Below, one piece after another: positions 241 through 15,516 of a stretch of DNA of 15,516 nucleotides. The stretch's first letter is position 1. Each line of letters opens with the position of its first letter. Source of the DNA: Candidatus Altarchaeum sp. (lineage in GTDB: Archaea > Altiarchaeota > Altiarchaeia > Altiarchaeales > Altiarchaeaceae); assembly GCA_018260755.1 (NCBI GenBank), contig JAGTWP010000034.1, positions 1 to 15,516 on the forward strand. The letters run 5' to 3'. The position numbers were made by a program, and so were the translations under genes. The notes under the pieces were generated by a model. It saw only the letters and a list, made by a program, of their open reading frames with translations, was not told where the DNA came from and made no database searches.

Positions 241-3200
241 TTAACCGACTGCCTGTTCGCTTAATTTTTTAACCCTTTCAATCGTATCTGCTTCTTCCGG
301 CGATTTATCATCCCTAAACCGGACTAATCTCGGAAATCTTAAAGCATATCCGCTCGTGTATGAAGGCGATTTCTGGATTTCCTCATAAGCAACTTCAATA
401 ACAATACTTGGCCTGATTTCAACATCTTTCCCTTCTTCTCTTGTAATTAATTCCCTTAAATTTTCCGTCATCTCTTTGAATTCTTCATCCGTGAATCCTG
501 TTCCCAATCTGCCTATTGTTAAAAATTTATTTGTTTCCGGATCTCTGATTGCTAATAAAAACGATGCTAACCATTGTGCCCTTCTTCCTTCCCCCCATGT
601 TCCCCCGACAATTACAACATCTAATGTTTCCATGAGTGGCTTAATTTTATACATATATCCTACTCTTGAACCCGCCTGATAAACAGCATCTAATTTTTTT
701 GCCATCACCCCTTCATGACCTAATTTTAAGGCATAACTATAAAATTTTTCCGCCTCTTCAATATTATCCGTAATTGTTTGTTCCGCCAGACGAAATACCT
801 CCGTCGTCCTTACCGTATTTTCCAAAATTTTTCTCCTGTTCTCAAATTTTTCATTGAGCAGTGATTTTCCGTTCAGATAAACCATATCAAATAAATTTAT
901 TTCAACAGGAATTTTAATAGCAATTTCATCAATATCATATTTTCTCTTTATCCTACGGGATAATGCCTGAAAGACCCTCGGTTTTCTTCTTTCGGAATCA
1001 TCACCCTGTTCTGTGCCACCTTGTCCTATGCCCTGTATTGCTACTGTTTCACCTTCCATAATTACACTGTCCGCTTTCACATTTTCTTTAACCGCTTTAA
1101 CAATTTCCGGAAACTGGGCAGTAACATTTTCAAGTCGTCTTGTAAATAAATAAATTTTATCCTTATTTTTCTGAATTTGTATTCTCATTCCATCATATTT
1201 TACCTCAAATGCACATCTTCCAAATTCATCAATTGCATTTTCAATTGGATTAATGAAGATATTTAAGTTGCCCCTCTCTTTTTTCAAATTATATTCACAT
1301 ATTTTTTCACCACCAAGTTCAACATCAACAATATTCTTTTCTTCGTTAAGTACTATAGCAAGCGAGTTTTTATTATCTTTAATATCTTTAATTAATAGTT
1401 TATTTTCATCTATTTTTTCGATTTCTGCATTTTTTATCCATCCTATCTCTATATCTTTCTCTAAAAATGTCAGGAATTTTTTACTATCCTTTCCGGGAAT
1501 GCACACATACCAATTACGCTTATATATATTTAGCTTACCATCCTCTTCTTTTAAAATGTAATCATAGGTGTCCCCGCAACCCATTTCTAAGCTTGCAGTA
1601 TTTTTTAATTTGTCAATTTTAAACAATAGTGAGTTATTCTCCTTTGTAAAGGATATAGTTTCACCATTATCCCCTTTTTTTATTTCTGCGTTTTCCGCCC
1701 AATTTATTTTTAAGTCATCCTTTAAATGTTTTAGAAGTCCTGAAACATCACCCCAACTAAACAAATACTCAGCATTCTCCTTTAGAAGCCATTTATATTT
1801 CTTATCCTCGCCAAGATCTATATCCACAATGTTTTTTTCTTTGTTAAGTATTATAGTAAGCGAGTTTCCATTATCTTTAACTGCTATGGTATTTTCATCT
1901 ATCCTTTTGATTTCTGCGTTTTTTATCCATTCTAATTCTAAATTTTTCTCTAAAAATGTTATGAATCTTCTACTATCTTTTTCAAGAATCTCGTTCCAGA
2001 TAAACAAATGCATGGGAATATCTTCCCAACTAAACAACTCAGGCCCCATTTTTTGTGCGAGCATAACCCTTATAGGGATACCGATTTCAGGTACAATATT
2101 TTCAAGTCCTTTTATTCCCTTTAATTTTGCAATTTTTGCAATCTTTCCCATGTCAGATGTCAAATTATATGCCGCCTCAATATTTGTAGTAATGGAGGTT
2201 TTTAATTTTTTTCCGAGAGGTGTGTCTGAAAGAAGAATTTTATTAAAACTTTCAATATCCTCTGTTTGTATCTTTTCGATTTTATATATCTTTAGATCTA
2301 CACGCTCCTTTTTTAAAATATACTCCTGCTTCTCTCCACCACTGACTTCTAAGATTATTTTCTTTTCTTCTTCATCGAGTCTGAATATAAGCGATTTTTC
2401 TACTTTTGTAATGGTTATTACTTTGTCATCATCGCTTTTTTCAATTTTTGCATTTTCTATCCATTCTATTTTTAAGTCGCCTTTTAAAAATTTTATAAGT
2501 TCGGCATTGTTTTCAGGAACATCTTCCCAGTTAAACAAATACTCAAGTTTTTTTATTTTAATATAATTATTTTTTGAAAAATCAGTATAGTAATCAAATA
2601 AATTTTCATCCTTTTTTATAGTATTCTCTAACTCACTATCAATCAAAATTTTCTCGGACTTGGTTTTCTCCAAAAGTTCTTGAATTAGTATTCTATCATC
2701 CTTTCTGTATATGTTTGGTATTCCTGCATCCCATTTCAAAATATAACTATATGTCTTTCCATCAACGAGTTCTAACATTGCTTTGTTTTCTTCCTCGTCA
2801 AGTTTTAACCGAAGTGAGTTTTCCCCATTTGTAATCGTTATGATCTGGTTATTGTCGTTCTTTTTTATTTCTGCGTTTTCCACCCATTCTATCTTTAGAT
2901 TATTTCTCAAAAATCCTACGAGTTTTCTGTTATCGTTTCCTGGGACATTATTCCAACCAAACAAATATTTGTTTTCCCCTTCTTCCCCTTTCTGCCATAG
3001 TAAATCCTTCCATAAGATTTCAGCAAAAAAAGCTCTTGCAATCGCATCCCTGATTACACCTTCTCCGATTCCCACCCTCATTTCCCCGAGCAACAATCTT
3101 ATAAAAAATTTTGCTTCTGTTTCCGTTGCCTTTGATAAAATTTTGTCTATTAACTGCATCTTTTTATCCTGCGAGCCATCACCCGCACATTCTGAAATTT

Positions 3201-6310: not shown

Positions 6311-6315
6311 AAATA

Positions 6316-6485
6316 TACAAACGAAGTGAATGTAAGATACAAACGAAGTGAATGTAAGATACAAACGAAGTGAATGTAAGATACAAACGAAGTGAATGTA
6401 AGATACAAACGAAGTGAATGTAAGATACAAACGAAGTGAATGGAACGAAGTGAATGGAACGAAGTGAATGGAACGAAGTGAACGT
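6316..6485. repeat. Tandem array of 22-bp then 14-bp units
   Basis: Five perfect 22-bp units start at 6316, 6338, 6360, 6382 and 6404, and a sixth, partial unit starts at 6426. The array then changes to a 14-bp period (aacgaagtgaatgg) at 6430, 6444 and 6458, with a diverged last unit at 6472 (aacgaagtgaacgt). Both unit types contain aacgaagtgaa. The same core lies in the 3628-3919 element as tacacgaacgaagtgagcgta on the minus strand. Units are directly abutting with no spacers. Confidence 0.95.
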
Positions 6486-6644: not shown

Positions 6645-8039
6645 TTACTCGTATATCAATGCCTTTGCATCCATTATTGCCTTCTTAGTCATTTTTGAGG
6701 CCTCAATTGCAAAGTCAACACTTTTTGCTCCGGTAATAACTATCCTTCCGGATCTAAAAACAAGCATCACTGTCTTTGGCACTTCAATTTTATAAACAAG
6801 TCCGGGAAACTGCTCGGGTTCATACTCTGTGTTCTCGTCGTAGTCGGCAAGCACATCTAAATTTATCTTCGGATAAAACATTGTTGAAGCGACTATATTT
6901 TGCAATTTTATTATCGGCTCAGAGTTTAGATTTATATCAAACGCTTTTAATTTTTCAATCAGATGATTTTTTGCCTTTTGAACAAATTCTTCTCTTCCCG
7001 CACCTGTACATATAATACTTCCGGAATCAAACAATAACATTGCCAGCTGTAAATCCTTCAGACGATACACAATGCCTGGAAATCTTGATTTATTATAAAC
7101 AAATGTAAGTGCATCCTGTGCTATAACCTTTTCTATCTCCCCTTCTTCTATTGCTTTCCTTATTGTTTTCCTAAAAATTTCCGTAATTTTTTCTATATCC
7201 TCTTTATTTATTTTTTCTTCATCAATTCCTTCCTCGTTCATTGCTTTCTTAAATGTATCGTAGTATTCCTTGTTTATTACCTTTGCTATGCCTTCTTCTA
7301 TGTTTGCATTTTCTTTTGTTGCTTTCGTAAAAATATTCATATAGTCCTTTTCTATGATATTTTCTATATCTAACCGGTTATTATGAATGTATTCCGACTT
7401 TATTCCATCCAGGTTAATTGATATTGAGGCCACAATATTTTCCAGAATAATCAGATTATCATAGACCAAAAGTTTGCCTGCTTTTTTTCGGATAACTAAA
7501 ATTTCCTTCACCTTATCTTCATTTTCTACAAATACCCTGCCTTCACAATATATTTCTATACTTTTATCTGTATTGTCTCCCAAGTCCTTTATCGTATAAA
7601 TATCAACCATTCCGTCTATTCTGTTCCATATAACTCTCCATTCACAGTCTTTTATTTTTTTAACCTCCGCTCTCGCAGGAAGAAAAATTTTATTCTGATA
7701 AAACCCGTCCCTTAATTCCTCACTTATTATTCCTTCTTTTATATATTTACTGTAAGCTGCCCTTAAATCAAACAGATGTCCGACCTCATCAAGTTGAAAG
7801 TTTATGCTATGCCCATTATGTGAGAGGGTAATGTTTTTATTATCTTTGCTTTTTTCAATTTTTGCATCTTTGTTCCAGTCCACAAAGAAATTTGTCTTTA
7901 AATAATTTCTAATACTTTCTTCATCCTTTCCTGGAACATTATTCCACTCAAAAACAAATTCGGATATATCAATTTTATCCTTTTTCTTCTTTTTTTTAAT
8001 GACAACCTCGTCTTTGTTCTTTTTTGGCCCTCTGCTCAT
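6645..8039 (-). CDS. tbp: TATA-binding protein with large N-terminal extension and internal insertion
   Basis: General transcription factor that binds the promoter TATA box and recruits TFB and RNA polymerase. Both halves of the pseudo-symmetric saddle are present. Half 1 has NIVAS at 201-205, FPGIVYRL at 320-327 and the glycine-containing CTGAG at 344-348. Half 2 has NIVAS at 381-385, YEPEQFPGLVYKI at about 406-418 and VITGAKS at 434-440. Archaeal TBPs have about 180-190 residues; this one has 464. The extra length is a 195-residue N-terminal extension, with a Lys-rich start (residues 6-22) and a copy of the module also found in the ligase, plus about 75 charged helical residues inserted in half 1 between LDIENIIE and FVYNKSRFPG. 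S8e lies 105 bases upstream on the same strand. The ATG at 8039 is the only sensible start. Family assignment is firm; whether this is the main TBP or a paralogue is unknown. Confidence 0.93.
   Translation of the reverse strand: MSRGPKKNKDEVVIKKKKKKDKIDISEFVFEWNNVPGKDEESIRNYLKTNFFVDWNKDAKIEKSKDNKNITLSHNGHSINFQLDEVGHLFDLRAAYSKYIKEGIISEELRDGFYQNKIFLPARAEVKKIKDCEWRVIWNRIDGMVDIYTIKDLGDNTDKSIEIYCEGRVFVENEDKVKEILVIRKKAGKLLVYDNLIILENIVASISINLDGIKSEYIHNNRLDIENIIEKDYMNIFTKATKENANIEEGIAKVINKEYYDTFKKAMNEEGIDEEKINKEDIEKITEIFRKTIRKAIEEGEIEKVIAQDALTFVYNKSRFPGIVYRLKDLQLAMLLFDSGSIICTGAGREEFVQKAKNHLIEKLKAFDINLNSEPIIKLQNIVASTMFYPKINLDVLADYDENTEYEPEQFPGLVYKIEVPKTVMLVFRSGRIVITGAKSVDFAIEASKMTKKAIMDAKALIYE
7125..7355 (-). 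repeat. Helical repeat insertion inside TBP half 1
   Basis: TBP residues about 229-305 lie between the first NIVAS strand/helix and the FPGIVYRL strand, where other TBPs have a short loop. The segment reads as roughly three units of about 26 residues with the pattern (E/N)K-x-Y/I-x-x-x-F-x-K-A/T followed by Glu/Ile-rich turns: units start near 229, 255 and 280. It is predicted helical from composition and is unrelated to the FxW/VPG module. Confidence 0.6.
7590..7961 (-). repeat. Invasive FxW/VPG module, TBP copy (split)
   Basis: TBP residues 27-150. It opens EFVFEWNNVPGKDEESIRNYL, followed by FFVDWNKDAKIEKSKDNKNIT and INFQLDE, matching ligase copy 1 closely. The usual end (WRVIWN..DGMVDIYTI) appears only after an extra segment of about 45 residues (88-132) rich in Lys, Glu and Arg, so the copy is itself interrupted or belongs to a longer variant. 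Residues 158-195 may be a further degenerate tail (ILVIRKKAGKLLVYDN). Confidence 0.75.
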
Positions 8040-8686: not shown

Positions 8687-11600
8687 TTATATATTTTTAG
8701 ATCGCTGCTCGCCATTACTCCACACAACCTTTACTTCAGGAAGTCCTTTCGCACCTGCTCCTTTAATTCCTTCTGCATTTATAATCTTATACTCTGCTAT
8801 TCTTTTTTCTCCTTTCTTTAAATTACCAAGATTCATTATCAGAGTATCCCCCATTGCTGTTTTCTCAAGTCCCTGTGTAATTACCTCTATCTGCAATCCC
8901 AGAGGAATAATATCTTCAAGCATACACGCATCAAGTGTCTTATGTGTTTTATTAACTATTGTAATTGTGACCTTTCCGTCTCCTCTTTCTTTTGTTATTT
9001 CAACCTTTCCTTTCATCATGAACAGAATCAGATAAATCAGCAGCAGTATTGGCAACAACAATAAAAGCAATATCCAGTAATCAGGTAATTTCTTTTCTAT
9101 TTTTACCGGCAATGCAAAGTGTTCAACAGTGTAATCCGCATATTCCTGCTGATCTACAGTTATGTATCCCGACTGGTTAATTGTCAAACTGAATATTCCA
9201 TGTTCATCTGTAACAATCTTTTGCGTTACATTATTTGGCAATCTGACAACAAGTTCTCTGTTTGCGACTAAATTTCCCTGTTTATCTCTAACCTCAAATT
9301 CATAAATTCCTTCCTTTTCTTTGCCTTCTCCTTTTAATTGAGTAACAATTAAAATTTCTTTTTCAACTGTCGTTGGCTTTTCGGCTTCTACAACTGTTGG
9401 TGTTCTTGCCTCTACACCACCCTTTGTTGCTCTTATATCATAAACTCCGAGAACTGCTTTTGGGATAACTGCTGTTCCGTCAGTTCCTGTTACTGCTGTT
9501 TGTCCAGCATAGTCTACATGAGCATTTGCAACAGGAATTTCTTCTGATTTAATTAATGTTTCACTGACTTTCACCCATCTTGTTCCGTTTGTTGTATTTT
9601 GTTTGTAAGTTAGGTTGTAAGTATAGGCTTTATTTATAACTTTGACTGTAAATGATTCATTTTCTTTCATTGCGGTTATATTTCTGACCACTAAAGTATA
9701 ATTTGTTACAGTTGCTGACCTGAATACACCTTCTGTGGTTGTTACTGGTTCTGTTGCTGTTGGAGGTAATGCTGCCGTAGTTATACCTTCACCTCCACCA
9801 CCTCCGATACTTATGGGTGATCGTGGCTGTGGCTTACAGGTTAGACATATTGGTGGTTCTGGTGCGCCTGCACCTTTCTTTGTAATAGTCAATACTTTAT
9901 TCCATACCTGGACATTACAACACATATCATAAATAATAACAGTAACATTTAAGAAGTATGTTGTTTTATTTGCAACATCAGAAGGTAACACATACGGAGT
10001 ACCTTCAACACCAACGCCTCCAAATCCATTTTCTATTCCCTGATTATCAAATATCCCATCAATATTTGGATCTCCTAATTGCAAGGATGTAGGAGTAACC
10101 TTTGTTATGTTTCCATTCTCATTTACATAAGGTGTGAAGAATACTTTTACTACTGCAGGAAGACTTTCTCTATTCTTCAAACTTACATTTATGTAAACAG
10201 TATCTTCAGTATGCAGCTCACCTTTATCTTTCAAATTAACCATTTGAACATCTTCATCGCGGATGTTTGGTGCAACAATATCACCTATTGAAATATTTCC
10301 AAGTTTAATTATATTCTTTTGCTCAGTCTCATTTCCTACAATTACTGTAACATTATAGACATACTTTCCTTCTATAAAGTCTTTCTCACCTATTGTTTCC
10401 AGATCATCAATTTTTTTGATATAGTAGGATTTATTTAACTTCAATGTTATTACATTATTATTTAAAGTTGCATTTTCGCTTAACACACCCTCAGGTGCAA
10501 CAGTAGTTATATTGGTGCCATCAATAGTTAATGTAATTTCATCATCTCCAACTTTTACCGTTAATTTCGAAGTATTTGCATTTATTTTTAGAGTTATAAC
10601 TGGATCATTAAATGAATATCCTCGTGTATCTCTTTCATTTATGTTTGGAGAGGATAGGTAATCACTGCTAAATGCACATTTCGCGTATGCACCTCCGTAT
10701 TTCACTAAATCCATATTTATTGTCTTTGTAATATTTGCCTCGTCTAAATTCACTACATTTTTACCTGTTGAACTTTCATTATATTTCCATACATACGGTG
10801 CGTCTGTTGCATCAACTGAAACATATACGCTATTGTTAAATTCAAACAACCACGGATTTTTAATACTTGAAAATGTTGCTGTATCAAAACTTGCACTATC
10901 AAAGTCAGATTTCTTTACACCCGCAGCACTAACTGCTTTATGTAAAATATTTACATTTATCAATGACCAACCAGTATCATTTGTAGTATATTTTTCAACA
11001 TATATTTTATTGTCTGTTAATGGTGCTTTCACAAAATAAGTTACCGTTTTGTTTCCGGTGGTTACAGGGTAATCTAATTCTATAGTATCTAATAAAGGTG
11101 TATCTACTTGGAATGACACATATAAATTACCACCATTGAAGAGTATATTTGGATGATGTGCTTCACAAGTTGTATTCATTTTTTGTCCTTTTGTTTCAAC
11201 TTCGCATAGTGGATCACCATAAACAGTTATATTCCCTCCAACAACGTCTTCTTTCTTGACCTTAAGCACATATTTTCCTTTATTCAAAATATCTGCTGAC
11301 ACATAATAAGTATGATTCAATTCATTGTTGAACGTTAATGTAACATTTGTGAACTTAATTTCATTTCCTGTTATATTTGGGGTTTCACTTGCTATCCATG
11401 TAACTCCAAAATTGTTTCTTAAATAATCCTTAAGTTCTTGAATGCCCCCAATGTCCCCATTAATTGAATAATTCCAGTTAAATGCTCTTTTTTCTGCGAA
11501 ATCTGTAATCTTTCTAATCGTTCCATCTTCCTTTGTATAAATATATATATCAGAATTATTTGCATAAGCAATATATGTCTTTCCATTATATCTGGCAATT

Positions 11601-14600
11601 GCTGGTTCCTTTGCATCTCCTGCTGGAATGGCAGCAATTTTTTCTTCATATGGACAGGATAATGAAGCTGCTGAGGATGTACATTCCCTATAATACAAAC
11701 TTGCTTGTAAATCCCCTTCTCCTCTACCCATATAAACCAAATATATCTCATTATTATCATAAGTCATTGCAGGATAATAATACCTCATTCCTTGCTGTGA
11801 AATTTCAAAAGATATGTTTTGGTAAGTTGCACTTGCATTAGAAAGATAAATAAACCTTATCTTTGGATTGTGATTATCATTGCTATAATCTTCATACGCA
11901 ATATAGTACCCACTTCCAACCTTAATCATTGATGTTGCAGCCTGCCAGTTAATAACATTTGTCAATTTTGTAAAGTTAACTGTTGAAAGATTTTCCATCT
12001 CATCTGCATAATTCCATACAATTGTTGAATACAATTCGTATCTATTTCCATAGTCTGTCTTGTATCCTTTGCTTATACTCGCTATACAACCATTATCATT
12101 ACCACAATAAGCAATATTGCTATTTACCAATGAATAGGTAATTGCACATTTTGGATCTGTTGGAGAGGTACATTCATATAGTACATTGAAATCTTTTTCT
12201 CTTGAAGTATTACATTGGTCATTTAAATATATTCTTAATGTGTATATACTTTCATTTAAATCATTTATATTATAAGAACCATAATATATTGTGGTTGTTG
12301 TATTCGTTACAGGTGTGGTATTTGTCAGATTGAATGCCCCTACAATTGTTCCATTTTTAGATATAATATCAGCAGTAACATTAAATTTCAATTTTCCCTG
12401 CACTGGAACATTTACACTCATCATTCCTTTTGGCACACCATAAGGACCTTCTTCAAATATCTCTATGTTTGATAGATCCCCACAAACATCTGAAACCAAT
12501 TGCAATGTTGCTGGTTGGAAGTAATTAACTGTTCCATTGAAATTTATATTTCCAGATACATTAACACCTCCTAAAAGTGCAACATTAAATGAATAATTTC
12601 CTGCAGTAACAAAAAATTCAACAATTCCTTCTTCATTTGTAAATTTGGTTTCATTCCATGTTTCATTATATAAAGTAACAGATGCGTTTTGTATTGGAGA
12701 GCCATTATTTTCATAAGTTACATTTATCACTATTCTTGGTTCCTTCACAAGTCCAATAAATACTTCCATATCCCCGGTATTATTAAAGTAAGGAGTAATC
12801 ACTCCATTTGACATATAATGCGTTGCGCTTGCATTTATATGATAAGTTCCATTTGGAATTTGCCCTACATACTCTTGCATAAATTTATAACATCCTATAT
12901 TATCTGTCGTTCCATTTATATTTAAATTTAATGTTTCATTATAGAGCAACACTGTTGCATTACTTATTCTTTGTCCTGTACTTTCATTTCCTGTCTCATT
13001 ATCATACACACAAACAGTTATTCTTGGAAGTGGAGTAAGTTCTATCGTCAAATTTGTGTCTCCTAAATATTCTGCTGTTCCACTACTTGGAATATATCCC
13101 TTTGCAGTTGCATTGATACTATAATTTCCATAAGAAATGTTCACAAAGCGATAACATCCTTTTGAGTCAGTTTCTCCACTTGCTGAAAATGTTGAATTAA
13201 ATAAAGTTACATTTACTTTCACTATCGGTGTTGTTGTATTTACTTCAACTACGCAAACCTTTATTCCCTTCATTGCAGAAAGTTTTATTTCTTGAAGTAA
13301 AATAGTTCCATCATATTCAATTTGCCCTTTACTTTCTTCGTATCCATATTTTGATGCTTTGACAGTATAAGTACCTGCTAAAATGTTATAAAATCGGGCA
13401 CATCCACTCATATTTGTTAAATTTGACGCAATATTATTATTGTCTTTATAAATTTCAACCAATGCATCACTTAATGTTTCATTTGTTTCACTATCTTTTA
13501 CACAAATTTGAAGATAGGGAGTTATTGAAGGAGTTAATGAGAAATTATATACAAAAGTTTCATTTATGTAAAATGTTCCAAATTCTGAATCTTTTGAAAA
13601 GTCCTCTTCTATTGAATTATATCCTATCTTGCTCACATTTATTGAATAGTTTCCTATAGCAGAAGGAATAAACATATACTTACCTTTTTCATCTGTAAAA
13701 TTTATTGCTATTAAAACACCTTCTTTATACAACTCAACTGTTGCATTTTGAATTCCTTCCCCAGTTACATTATCTATGACATATCCTTGTATAGAAGGAG
13801 GATAATTTAACATTATGTTGAGATATAAAGACACATTTCCTGCAAATGAAATGTTGACAATTTCTTCTTTATATTTCTCTTTAGTTATAATAGAAGTATA
13901 ATTACTCACTGCCAAATTTCTAAATTTATAACAATTTTCTTTATCTCCAAGAGTGATGTTTGCTATCGTTGTATTGCCTAAATTTCTTAAAACAATCGTT
14001 GTTTGATTTAATGAGGCATTTTCTTCATCAAAGGTGCATATTGTCAAGGTGTATTGTTCTAATTCAATCTTATAATAGAAAGGTTCAAATAAGTATTCCA
14101 CTTTCTCAAATTTAGGATATGTTGTTTTTGACGCTTTTACATTATAGTATCCTTGGGAAACATTATCAAATATATAACAACCTGTTTTTGTGGTATAATT
14201 CCACTTTGTATCTGTAGAATTTGAAATACTCACATTTACATCTTCAATTATCTCTTTTGTATCTTTGTCATATACACATACCTTCACTCCACTTGGAAGC
14301 TGAATTACTTTAACTTTTGTGTAATTCCATCCGGTTACTTGTGTTTTATAGTCATCATTCATTCTAAATTTAATAGTATATGTTCCTGTATAGTTTCCAA
14401 TTTTTTTATCTCCTATAACGAAAATTGTTGTATCCAATGTAATGTTACATCCTCCACCGGAAATGTTTGAAGTTGTGACATTGTATTCTATTGCTGATTT
14501 ATCAATTCTGTCTCCCAATGTAGTCATATTTGTGAATTCTACATTTATTTCTCCTTTATAAATATCACTACAATTTATAGTTGACTCAAACCATACTGAT

Positions 14601-15516
14601 GCATTATTGCTCTTTCCTGATGCTATTTCTACAAAGTCCAACACATCTGCATCTAATTTTTGTATTGGTGTTGAAATTACCTGAACTTTTGTTGTATTTG
14701 TTCCGGTTACTTTTGTTTTGTAATCATCATTTATTCTTAATGAATAAGTATAAGTTCCCGTATAATTTCCTATCTTTTGTCCTGCTGGAATGTTTAAAGT
14801 TGCAGTTATTGTTATATTGCATGCTGTCGCGTTTATTGGAGTTAGTGTAATGTTCTTGATTATGTTATTTTTACTTATTGATGCTCCTGTTGTTGTTAGA
14901 TCTGAAAATTCAACATCAACATTTCCATATATTTGTGAGCAATTTCCATCTAATCCCGTATCTACTTCTATAGAGATTTCTGCTGTGTTATTTATTCCTT
15001 CTGTTAGGTTTCCAAAGTCAATTGCTGCCGGAGTTATTACATTTACAGGTGTTGAAATTACCTGAACTTTTGTTGTATTTGTTCCTGTTACTTTTGTTTT
15101 ATAATCATCATTTATTCTTAATGAATAAGTATAAGTTCCCGTATAATTTCCTATCTTTTGTCCTGCTGGAATGTTTAAAGTTGCAGTTATTGTTATATTG
15201 CATGCTGTCGCGTTTATTGGAGTTAGTGTAATGTTCTTGATTATGTTATTTTTACTTATTGATGCTCCTGTTGTTGTTAGATCTGAAAATTCAACATCAA
15301 CATTTCCATATATTTGTGAGCAATTTCCATCTAATCCCGTATCTACTTCTATAGAGATTTCTGCTGTGTTATTTATTCCTTCTGTTAGGTTTCCAAAGTC
15401 AATTGCTGCCGGAGTTATTACATTTACAGGTGTTGAAATTACCTGAACTTTTGTTGTATTTGTTCCGGTTACTTTTGTTTTGTAATCATCATTTATTCTT
15501 AATGAATAAGTATAAG
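8687..15516 (-). CDS. Giant membrane-anchored surface protein (5' end outside window)
   Basis: Probable S-layer or adhesin-like surface protein of at least 2275 residues. The frame stays open from the stop at 8687 to the right edge, so start and signal peptide lie outside; the first in-frame start-type codon in view is an internal GTG at 14644. Order from the N-terminal side: near-identical 127-residue beta-sandwich-like repeats (15516-14660) and a diverged copy; about seven Cna-B/carboxypeptidase-regulatory-like modules (14296-12485) with motifs such as CVYDxxT, GCYxF and GxYxxxAxxxGY; a propeller-like region (about 12154-10610) with blades such as HHPNILFNGGNLYVSF, interrupted by an FxW/VPG module; Ig-like domains; a Gly/Pro/Thr linker (about 9877-9710); a transmembrane helix (9082-9014); and a beta-rich C-terminal domain of about 107 residues. 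N-x-S/T sequons are abundant before the helix, as expected of an exported archaeal glycoprotein. The exact function is not recognisable. Confidence 0.9.
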   Translation of the reverse strand, partial: YTYSLRINDDYKTKVTGTNTTKVQVISTPVNVITPAAIDFGNLTEGINNTAEISIEVDTGLDGNCSQIYGNVDVEFSDLTTTGASISKNNIIKNITLTPINATACNITITATLNIPAGQKIGNYTGTYTYSLRINDDYKTKVTGTNTTKVQVISTPVNVITPAAIDFGNLTEGINNTAEISIEVDTGLDGNCSQIYGNVDVEFSDLTTTGASISKNNIIKNITLTPINATACNITITATLNIPAGQKIGNYTGTYTYSLRINDDYKTKVTGTNTTKVQVISTPIQKLDADVLDFVEIASGKSNNASVWFESTINCSDIYKGEINVEFTNMTTLGDRIDKSAIEYNVTTSNISGGGCNITLDTTIFVIGDKKIGNYTGTYTIKFRMNDDYKTQVTGWNYTKVKVIQLPSGVKVCVYDKDTKEIIEDVNVSISNSTDTKWNYTTKTGCYIFDNVSQGYYNVKASKTTYPKFEKVEYLFEPFYYKIELEQYTLTICTFDEENASLNQTTIVLRNLGNTTIANITLGDKENCYKFRNLAVSNYTSIITKEKYKEEIVNISFAGNVSLYLNIMLNYPPSIQGYVIDNVTGEGIQNATVELYKEGVLIAINFTDEKGKYMFIPSAIGNYSINVSKIGYNSIEEDFSKDSEFGTFYINETFVYNFSLTPSITPYLQICVKDSETNETLSDALVEIYKDNNNIASNLTNMSGCARFYNILAGTYTVKASKYGYEESKGQIEYDGTILLQEIKLSAMKGIKVCVVEVNTTTPIVKVNVTLFNSTFSASGETDSKGCYRFVNISYGNYSINATAKGYIPSSGTAEYLGDTNLTIELTPLPRITVCVYDNETGNESTGQRISNATVLLYNETLNLNINGTTDNIGCYKFMQEYVGQIPNGTYHINASATHYMSNGVITPYFNNTGDMEVFIGLVKEPRIVINVTYENNGSPIQNASVTLYNETWNETKFTNEEGIVEFFVTAGNYSFNVALLGGVNVSGNINFNGTVNYFQPATLQLVSDVCGDLSNIEIFEEGPYGVPKGMMSVNVPVQGKLKFNVTADIISKNGTIVGAFNLTNTTPVTNTTTTIYYGSYNINDLNESIYTLRIYLNDQCNTSREKDFNVLYECTSPTDPKCAITYSLVNSNIAYCGNDNGCIASISKGYKTDYGNRYELYSTIVWNYADEMENLSTVNFTKLTNVINWQAATSMIKVGSGYYIAYEDYSNDNHNPKIRFIYLSNASATYQNISFEISQQGMRYYYPAMTYDNNEIYLVYMGRGEGDLQASLYYRECTSSAASLSCPYEEKIAAIPAGDAKEPAIARYNGKTYIAYANNSDIYIYTKEDGTIRKITDFAEKRAFNWNYSINGDIGGIQELKDYLRNNFGVTWIASETPNITGNEIKFTNVTLTFNNELNHTYYVSADILNKGKYVLKVKKEDVVGGNITVYGDPLCEVETKGQKMNTTCEAHHPNILFNGGNLYVSFQVDTPLLDTIELDYPVTTGNKTVTYFVKAPLTDNKIYVEKYTTNDTGWSLINVNILHKAVSAAGVKKSDFDSASFDTATFSSIKNPWLFEFNNSVYVSVDATDAPYVWKYNESSTGKNVVNLDEANITKTINMDLVKYGGAYAKCAFSSDYLSSPNINERDTRGYSFNDPVITLKINANTSKLTVKVGDDEITLTIDGTNITTVAPEGVLSENATLNNNVITLKLNKSYYIKKIDDLETIGEKDFIEGKYVYNVTVIVGNETEQKNIIKLGNISIGDIVAPNIRDEDVQMVNLKDKGELHTEDTVYINVSLKNRESLPAVVKVFFTPYVNENGNITKVTPTSLQLGDPNIDGIFDNQGIENGFGGVGVEGTPYVLPSDVANKTTYFLNVTVIIYDMCCNVQVWNKVLTITKKGAGAPEPPICLTCKPQPRSPISIGGGGGEGITTAALPPTATEPVTTTEGVFRSATVTNYTLVVRNITAMKENESFTVKVINKAYTYNLTYKQNTTNGTRWVKVSETLIKSEEIPVANAHVDYAGQTAVTGTDGTAVIPKAVLGVYDIRATKGGVEARTPTVVEAEKPTTVEKEILIVTQLKGEGKEKEGIYEFEVRDKQGNLVANRELVVRLPNNVTQKIVTDEHGIFSLTINQSGYITVDQQEYADYTVEHFALPVKIEKKLPDYWILLLLLLPILLLIYLILFMMKGKVEITKERGDGKVTITIVNKTHKTLDACMLEDIIPLGLQIEVITQGLEKTAMGDTLIMNLGNLKKGEKRIAEYKIINAEGIKGAGAKGLPEVKVVWSNGEQRSKNI
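11210..11485 (-). repeat. Invasive FxW/VPG module, surface-protein copy
   Basis: About 92 residues starting AFNWNYSINGD, with ELKDYLRNNFGVTWIASETPN, a strand-rich middle and the end KYVLKVKKED..NITVYGD. The spacing matches the ligase copies. It falls between the propeller segments IRKITDFAEKR and CEAHHPNILFNGGNLYVSF. Unlike the ligase and TBP copies it carries five N-x-S/T sequons (NYS, NIT, NVT, NHT, NIT), so it appears adapted to the extracellular environment. Confidence 0.75.
14660..15516 (-). repeat. 381-bp near-identical tandem coding repeats
   Basis: Two complete 381-bp units (14660-15040 and 15041-15421) and part of a third reach the right edge. Each encodes 127 residues of a beta-sandwich-like domain with AAIDFGNLTEGINNTAEI, CSQIYGNVDVEF and IGNYTGTYTYSLRINDDYKT. 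I see only two base differences between units after the join, both synonymous (Thr acc/aca, Tyr tac/tat). The first and third units share one state and the middle unit has the other. A diverged copy follows at about 14287-14659 (MTTLGDRIDKS, IGNYTGTYTIKFRMNDDYKT). The array may extend further beyond the window. Confidence 0.93.

Follow-up and report, generated by a model that had tools for sequence, protein, structure and literature searches.

In-frame inserts of an archaeal DNA ligase as probable copies of a non-autonomous transposable element that encodes a small domain

Rickettsia provides the best-known cases of selfish DNA inserted in frame into conserved genes; the encoded peptide is short there, and how the DNA moves is unclear. 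The Rickettsia palindromic elements (RPE; Ogata 2000, 2002, reviewed in PMC10969869 and PMC2229807) are palindromes of 105–150 bp reported from Rickettsia, for which target duplication is listed as unknown, and one of their host enzymes, guanylate kinase, has been shown to stay active (reviewed in the same two articles). The 107-bp Correia/NEMIS and the ERIC/RU elements are MITEs with open frames that are fused in frame to genes, and their coding and non-coding versions are split between genes and intergenic regions (PMC2229807). The IS66 family makes 8-bp duplications, and its quoted terminal repeat starts GTAAGCG (PMC11946415).

The stretch of DNA analysed here (the window, 15,516 nucleotides) is one entire contig (C67) of G000, a 1.32-Mb archaeal genome that is 85% complete and consists of 78 contigs. 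It contains a DNA ligase gene enlarged by copies of a repeated module, and these are very probably copies of a non-autonomous transposable element (a coding MITE) that makes an 8-bp target-site duplication and is most likely moved by an IS66-family transposase. The closest known kind is RPE. Like these, the module is a short non-autonomous repeat with an open frame that lies in frame in unrelated, often conserved genes; its size and mechanism differ. New as compared with RPE are the larger size (262 bp, with inverted repeats at the ends alone), a clear and defined duplication of 8 bp, a probable mobiliser in the form of a candidate transposase family, a folded payload (a confidently predicted domain) and a broad range, from distant archaea to a cyanobacterial plasmid. 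The Correia/NEMIS and ERIC/RU elements resemble the module in their in-frame fusions and in having both coding and non-coding versions, but they are much shorter and occur in other hosts. As in MITEs, the module is short and multi-copy, has no transposase of its own, and is bounded by terminal inverted repeats and a duplication of fixed length. No earlier description of this element was found in the papers searched.

The ligase gene and its inserts

Pfam detected all three ligase domains in the full frame of the G000 gene (Table 1). With MLAQ at residue 506 and KYDG at residue 794, the spacing from MLAQ to the catalytic Lys794 is 284 residues, as compared with 19 in the ligase of the congener G001, and it is equally short in the congeners G002 and G003. 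Thus, the insert comprises ~265 residues, the size given in an earlier sequence-only reading, which had also correctly placed its end shortly before the catalytic lysine: the final module stops at residue 775. In total, the ligase has five near-complete modules of ~88 residues in two blocks. Both insertion sites lack modules in G001, G002 and G003, whose ligases have open frames of 566, 579 and 564 aa, respectively; the module-free ligases that this reading had proposed to look for in sister genomes are therefore present.

Table 1. Location of the ligase gene, the element copies and tandem repeats in the window.
Feature	Position	Strand	Evidence or remarks
ATP-dependent DNA ligase, host gene, 1112 aa	241..3579	(-)	single open frame; DNA_ligase_A_N/A_M/A_C; congeners 564–579 aa without modules
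KYDG, catalytic Lys794	1189..1200	(-)	
Block 1, element copy 1, 262 bp, residues 205–291	2707..2968	(-)	profile E 9.5e-39; flanks gaaaacaa/agaaagga match 4/8
Block 1, element copy 2, 259 bp, starts GTATTTGTTTAACTGGG	2284..2542	(-)	profile E 7e-35; flanks aaacttga/aaaatcga match 6/8; exact terminal-repeat pattern match
Block 2, outer element, left fragment (ELFSWEDIP)	2014..2041	(-)	joined with 1255–1503, gives one complete module
Block 2, middle element, N-terminal part (HLFIWNE...KENAE)	1768..2011	(-)	direct repeat ATTCCC on either side of the nested insert
Block 2, inner element (YLFSWGDV...KLNIY), 247 bp	1522..1768	(-)	95.4 bits alone; flanks aatgctga/aagcgtaa match 4/8
Block 2, middle element, putative resumption (KRNWY at the KLNIY position)	1507..1521	(-)	with the inner element cut out, the profile match reaches 86–87 instead of 80, gain of 1–3 bits
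Block 2, outer element resumes (CIPGKDSKKF...NIF)	1255..1503	(-)	from the re-joining result; followed by INPIENAIDEF
Element copy near the N-terminus of the TBP gene (6645–8039)	7743..7958	(-)	E 1.3e-27; common to G000–G003
Diverged element copy in the giant surface protein (8687–15514)	11216..11482	(-)	E 1.6e-22; shared with G002 and G003
Perfect tandem repeats, 22 bp (5.8 copies) and 14 bp (3.8 copies)	6315..6482		interval between the TBP gene and a phosphoribosyltransferase-like gene
Tandem repeat, 381 bp, 2.2 copies, 99% identity	14667..15516		open end of the giant surface-protein frame

Block 2 opens with a fragment of nine residues, and its last module lacks exactly that start. After re-joining, the outer module reaches 82.9 bits (profile positions 2–87), as compared with 68.5 bits for its right part alone; hence the other two modules interrupt the outer one. 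Its right part is joined to INPIENAIDEF, and these residues align with VNGVRDAIDEF of the G002 ligase. It is likely that the middle module is also split by the inner one, although here the gain in score is small. As read from the sequence, block 2 is thus a nested (Russian doll) arrangement, in which at least one module is interrupted by others, rather than the head-to-tail array of three modules that had been described.

The gene itself might be dying or an assembly artefact, with the real ligase elsewhere, and the incomplete, fragmented state of the assembly speaks for this. It is nevertheless hardly credible, given the full frame with all three domains, the divergence of the modules from each other and the occurrence of the element in many contigs and species. 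Furthermore, the sequence-only reading had named another ligase gene without modules, together with decay of the present one, as evidence that this is not the working gene; a search of G000 (85% complete) with PF01068 found only the one ligase.

The element at the DNA level and its candidate mobiliser

The commonest length of the element is 262 bp; it is open throughout and has imperfect terminal inverted repeats GTATTTGTTTAGCTGG / GTATATGTTTA, both of which are found by one pattern. The unit in 43 full copies starts G-TATTTGTTTAGCTGG and ends TTAAACATATAC, and the reverse complement of the end starts GTATATGTTTA. All 43 copies have a length of 1 mod 3, and the element together with 8 bp is thus a multiple of three. 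Since 262 + 8 = 270 bp, a copy inserted in phase lengthens the host gene by 90 codons and preserves its reading frame.

The 3' end of the element for the flank test was set by a protein motif, independently of the match. Among 34 non-redundant copies, the 8-bp flanks match at 58.8% versus 35.4% for the null, whereas the match at other lengths from 4 to 12 is close to the null. Flanks are identical at 6 or more of 8 positions in 16 of the 34 copies (null 3.6%), and in four the identity is perfect. Those of the ligase modules match at 4–6 of 8 positions; going by their sequences, the ligase junctions alone would not prove transposition. Perfect duplications were found on each side of a module nested within the RadC module of G003 (GCAAAAAA) and of a copy that lies between two genes on contig C48 of G000 (AATTTTCT). 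The latter indicates that insertion is not confined to genes.

Codon usage at the ends of the element departs strongly from the host background, Ser4 being AGC in 14 of 15 cases, Leu2 TTG in 24 of 33, and the last Tyr TAC in 21 of 31. Synonymous sites show clearly raised conservation at the 5' end and not over the last nine codons, and the lack of a rise at the 3' end as a whole counts against the transposon reading. A palindrome of 105–150 bp with a long stem-loop, as in RPE, was not found in the 262-bp module, for which the RNA folding z value is −0.06 for ligase copy 2 and −2.96 for the C48 copy, whose ends pair. A search with the end pattern further revealed non-coding elements of 100–325 bp in G000–G002, which have the same 14-bp end and 8-bp duplications, and nearly all of which contain stops in every frame.

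The likely mobiliser comes from the Methanothrix order. Three module copies in this order are exactly 262 bp long, with ends GTATGTGTTTAGCTGG / GTATATGTTTAG and perfect 8-bp duplications, the duplication having helped to decide which motif match was taken as the module end. Genomes of the same order include four complete IS66 elements of 1425–1457 bp with ends GTAYGTGTTTAGCT, which are flanked by the duplications CAAAAAAG, AAATCCTG, CCGCAAAG and AAAAAATG, all identical at 8 of 8 positions. Like other members of the family they make 8-bp duplications, and, unlike the module, they encode transposases, which matched NF033517 at 299 and 293 bits (cut-off 180) and also PF03050. In one genome of the order (G425), 16 bases are common to the end of the IS66 element and that of the module (GTATGTGTTTAGCTGG), and the module thus shares its ends with an autonomous IS of the same genome, as in MITEs. 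The IS66 elements of this order start GTAYGTGTTTAGCT and not GTAAGCG; hence the transposase belongs to the family and the ends are divergent. An IS66-family transposase most likely moves the element in trans, and would presumably do so in the genus of the window.

Two other transposases were considered. An IS630 transposase located between matching ends in G001 (L199) was dropped, as it has its own repeats and a TA duplication; positions 681–1864 of this locus are an IS630 element nested in a non-coding MITE with module-type terminal repeats. An IS1634 element was rejected because its own end starts CTTGAGTTTC, which makes it a host of the module. A complete element was not found among other GTATTTGTTT repeats in G002, G003 and G026.

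Dispersal across genes and genomes

A profile constructed from the seven modules of the window (five from the ligase and one each from TBP and the giant surface protein) located 18 places in G000 with E values down to 1e-38, every one in a stop-free frame. The repeat is thus beyond chance, and the modules, which had been regarded as a peculiarity of the ligase, belong instead to a genome-wide, probably mobile element. Hosts confirmed by Pfam are the LonB protease, RadC, CTP synthase, a protein with TPR and metallo-beta-lactamase domains (TPR-MBL protein) and CdhA (Prismane) in G000; PRPP synthetase, Cas3 and an Eco57I-type methylase in G001; Cas3, a rhomboid protein and a second TBP in G003; and N6 methylases in G026. 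In addition, IS1634 transposases carry the module in G002 and G026. No function or fold shared among the hosts was apparent.

The profile gave 11–20 matches per congener (G001–G003) and 25 in G026, which belongs to the same class and another family; in each of three more genomes of the class, a single copy lies inside a very large protein. The insertions in LonB, TBP and the TPR-MBL protein are common to the whole genus. G000 carries the module at the CTP synthase site and G001 at the PRPP synthetase site, whereas both sites are empty in G003. In the CTP synthase of G002 (L160), a KDDDAKN low-complexity repeat occupies the loop where G000 has the module. A RadC paralogue on contig C242 of G002 (L103) has its module frame broken into 128 and 215 aa.

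Outside this class, a contig search with one module protein as the query produced one locus, in a Methanothrix genome, and 13 of 50 genomes of the Methanothrix order have one to four module copies. In the conjugative Nostoc plasmid pn3 (L131), a protein annotated as functioning in baseplate assembly contains a diverged module. Another copy, in G123 (L138), was recognised by eye in the ATPase region of a putative topoisomerase VI subunit B. The flanking duplication is not above chance in the copies of G197, G309, G123 and Nostoc, which are therefore probably old. No relatives of the module were found in the viral contigs and phages searched.

In G000–G003 and G026, nearly all copies are genic, and a rough estimate for random insertion gives about as many intergenic copies as tolerated genic ones. 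The shortage of intergenic copies counts against the proposed element, and loss of unselected copies by decay may explain it.

Ordinary domain shuffling, by which a useful domain (e.g. a regulatory or interaction domain) would be spread by recombination and kept for its function, the DNA ends being incidental, could account for the purifying selection on resident modules (see below) and for the retention of the module in LonB, TBP and the TPR-MBL protein throughout the genus. It is unlikely in view of the clean duplication signal at the single length of 8 bp, the nested insertion with a perfect duplication, the same ends in non-coding MITEs and IS66 elements, and the unrelated hosts, which include transposases and Cas3.

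Fate of the inserted domain and its significance

Orthologous modules have dN/dS values of 0.12–0.42, mostly above those of their hosts and well below 1, which indicates that the modules are translated and that their protein sequence is conserved. The payload is an α/β domain of ~87 residues. Modelled alone using AlphaFold2, it gave a pLDDT of 92.9 and a pTM of 0.82, with two helices followed by six strands. In the model of the whole 1112-aa ligase, calculated without ligase homologues as input, the core is poor (mean pLDDT 57) and the module regions reach about 70–92. Fold comparison gave weak matches with frataxin-like proteins at the top (best Foldseek E 0.03, VIA-align Z 4.8 at best). In Pfam and NCBIfam, the first member had no match above the curated cut-off, and 25 members had just scattered weak matches; no transposase family matched the open frame of the module.

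The sequence-only reading had left two alternatives, namely that the protein tolerates a large extra lobe or that the insert is removed at the RNA or protein level. The former is borne out by the codon-level selection and the predicted fold, as well as by the IS1634-type element of G026, in which the module lies inside the transposase in all six copies found, the five compared sites being distinct. This suggests that the transposase works with its insert, an argument limited by assembly collapse of repeats. Removal before the ligase becomes active, either as an intron or by self-splicing in the manner of an intein, would suit an insert adjoining the active site, and inteins do occur in related ligases: in G026 and G036 (L084 and L085), inserts of ~300 residues recognised by eye as intein-like lie directly after KYDG(F/M)R. 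The module resembles these in being an in-frame insert near the ligase active site. Unlike inteins, it has only ~90 residues and no sign of self-splicing, and Pfam found no Hint/intein domain in the G000 ligase. Moreover, the first residue of the modules is mostly Tyr, and not Cys, Ser or Thr; their ends are DNA terminal repeats beside an 8-bp target duplication, i.e. transposon ends and not splice signals; and the ligase modules are indistinguishable from copies near protein N-termini, e.g. that of TBP. Removal, which is very improbable, is thus not needed to explain the open, codon-constrained frame and is without support. Resident modules are translated and most likely tolerated; the ligase would accordingly be active and its insert neutral or nearly so.

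The whole element is one open frame for a domain predicted to fold, and it occupies 270 bp together with the duplication. In the proposed mechanism, this length is what spares the host gene. A copy landing in the sense orientation and in phase would add a folded unit of 90 residues and leave the host protein unbroken. At the first ligase site, two copies would have landed in the N-terminal domain. At the second, a copy would have landed between the DNA-binding and adenylation domains, and further copies would then have entered that copy.

It seems somewhat more probable than the contrary that the foldable domain is an adaptation of the element to life inside genes. Selection at the level of the element would have kept an 'insertion-safe' domain, and a single family of selfish DNA would thereby have placed this domain in essential enzymes across many archaea and also on at least one plasmid of a cyanobacterium.

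For genome annotation, the finding carries a warning, as a domain that has no name and occurs in many unrelated archaeal proteins can mislead the transfer of function by homology. The combination of defined ends, a duplication, a candidate transposase, empty alleles in sister genomes and a domain predicted to be stable makes the route from transposition to multidomain proteins testable. The same applies to the tolerance of essential enzymes to inserts by their active sites and to the selection of selfish DNA for a harmless fold. If true, the insertion-safe nature of the domain would mean that transposition can lead directly to new multidomain proteins.
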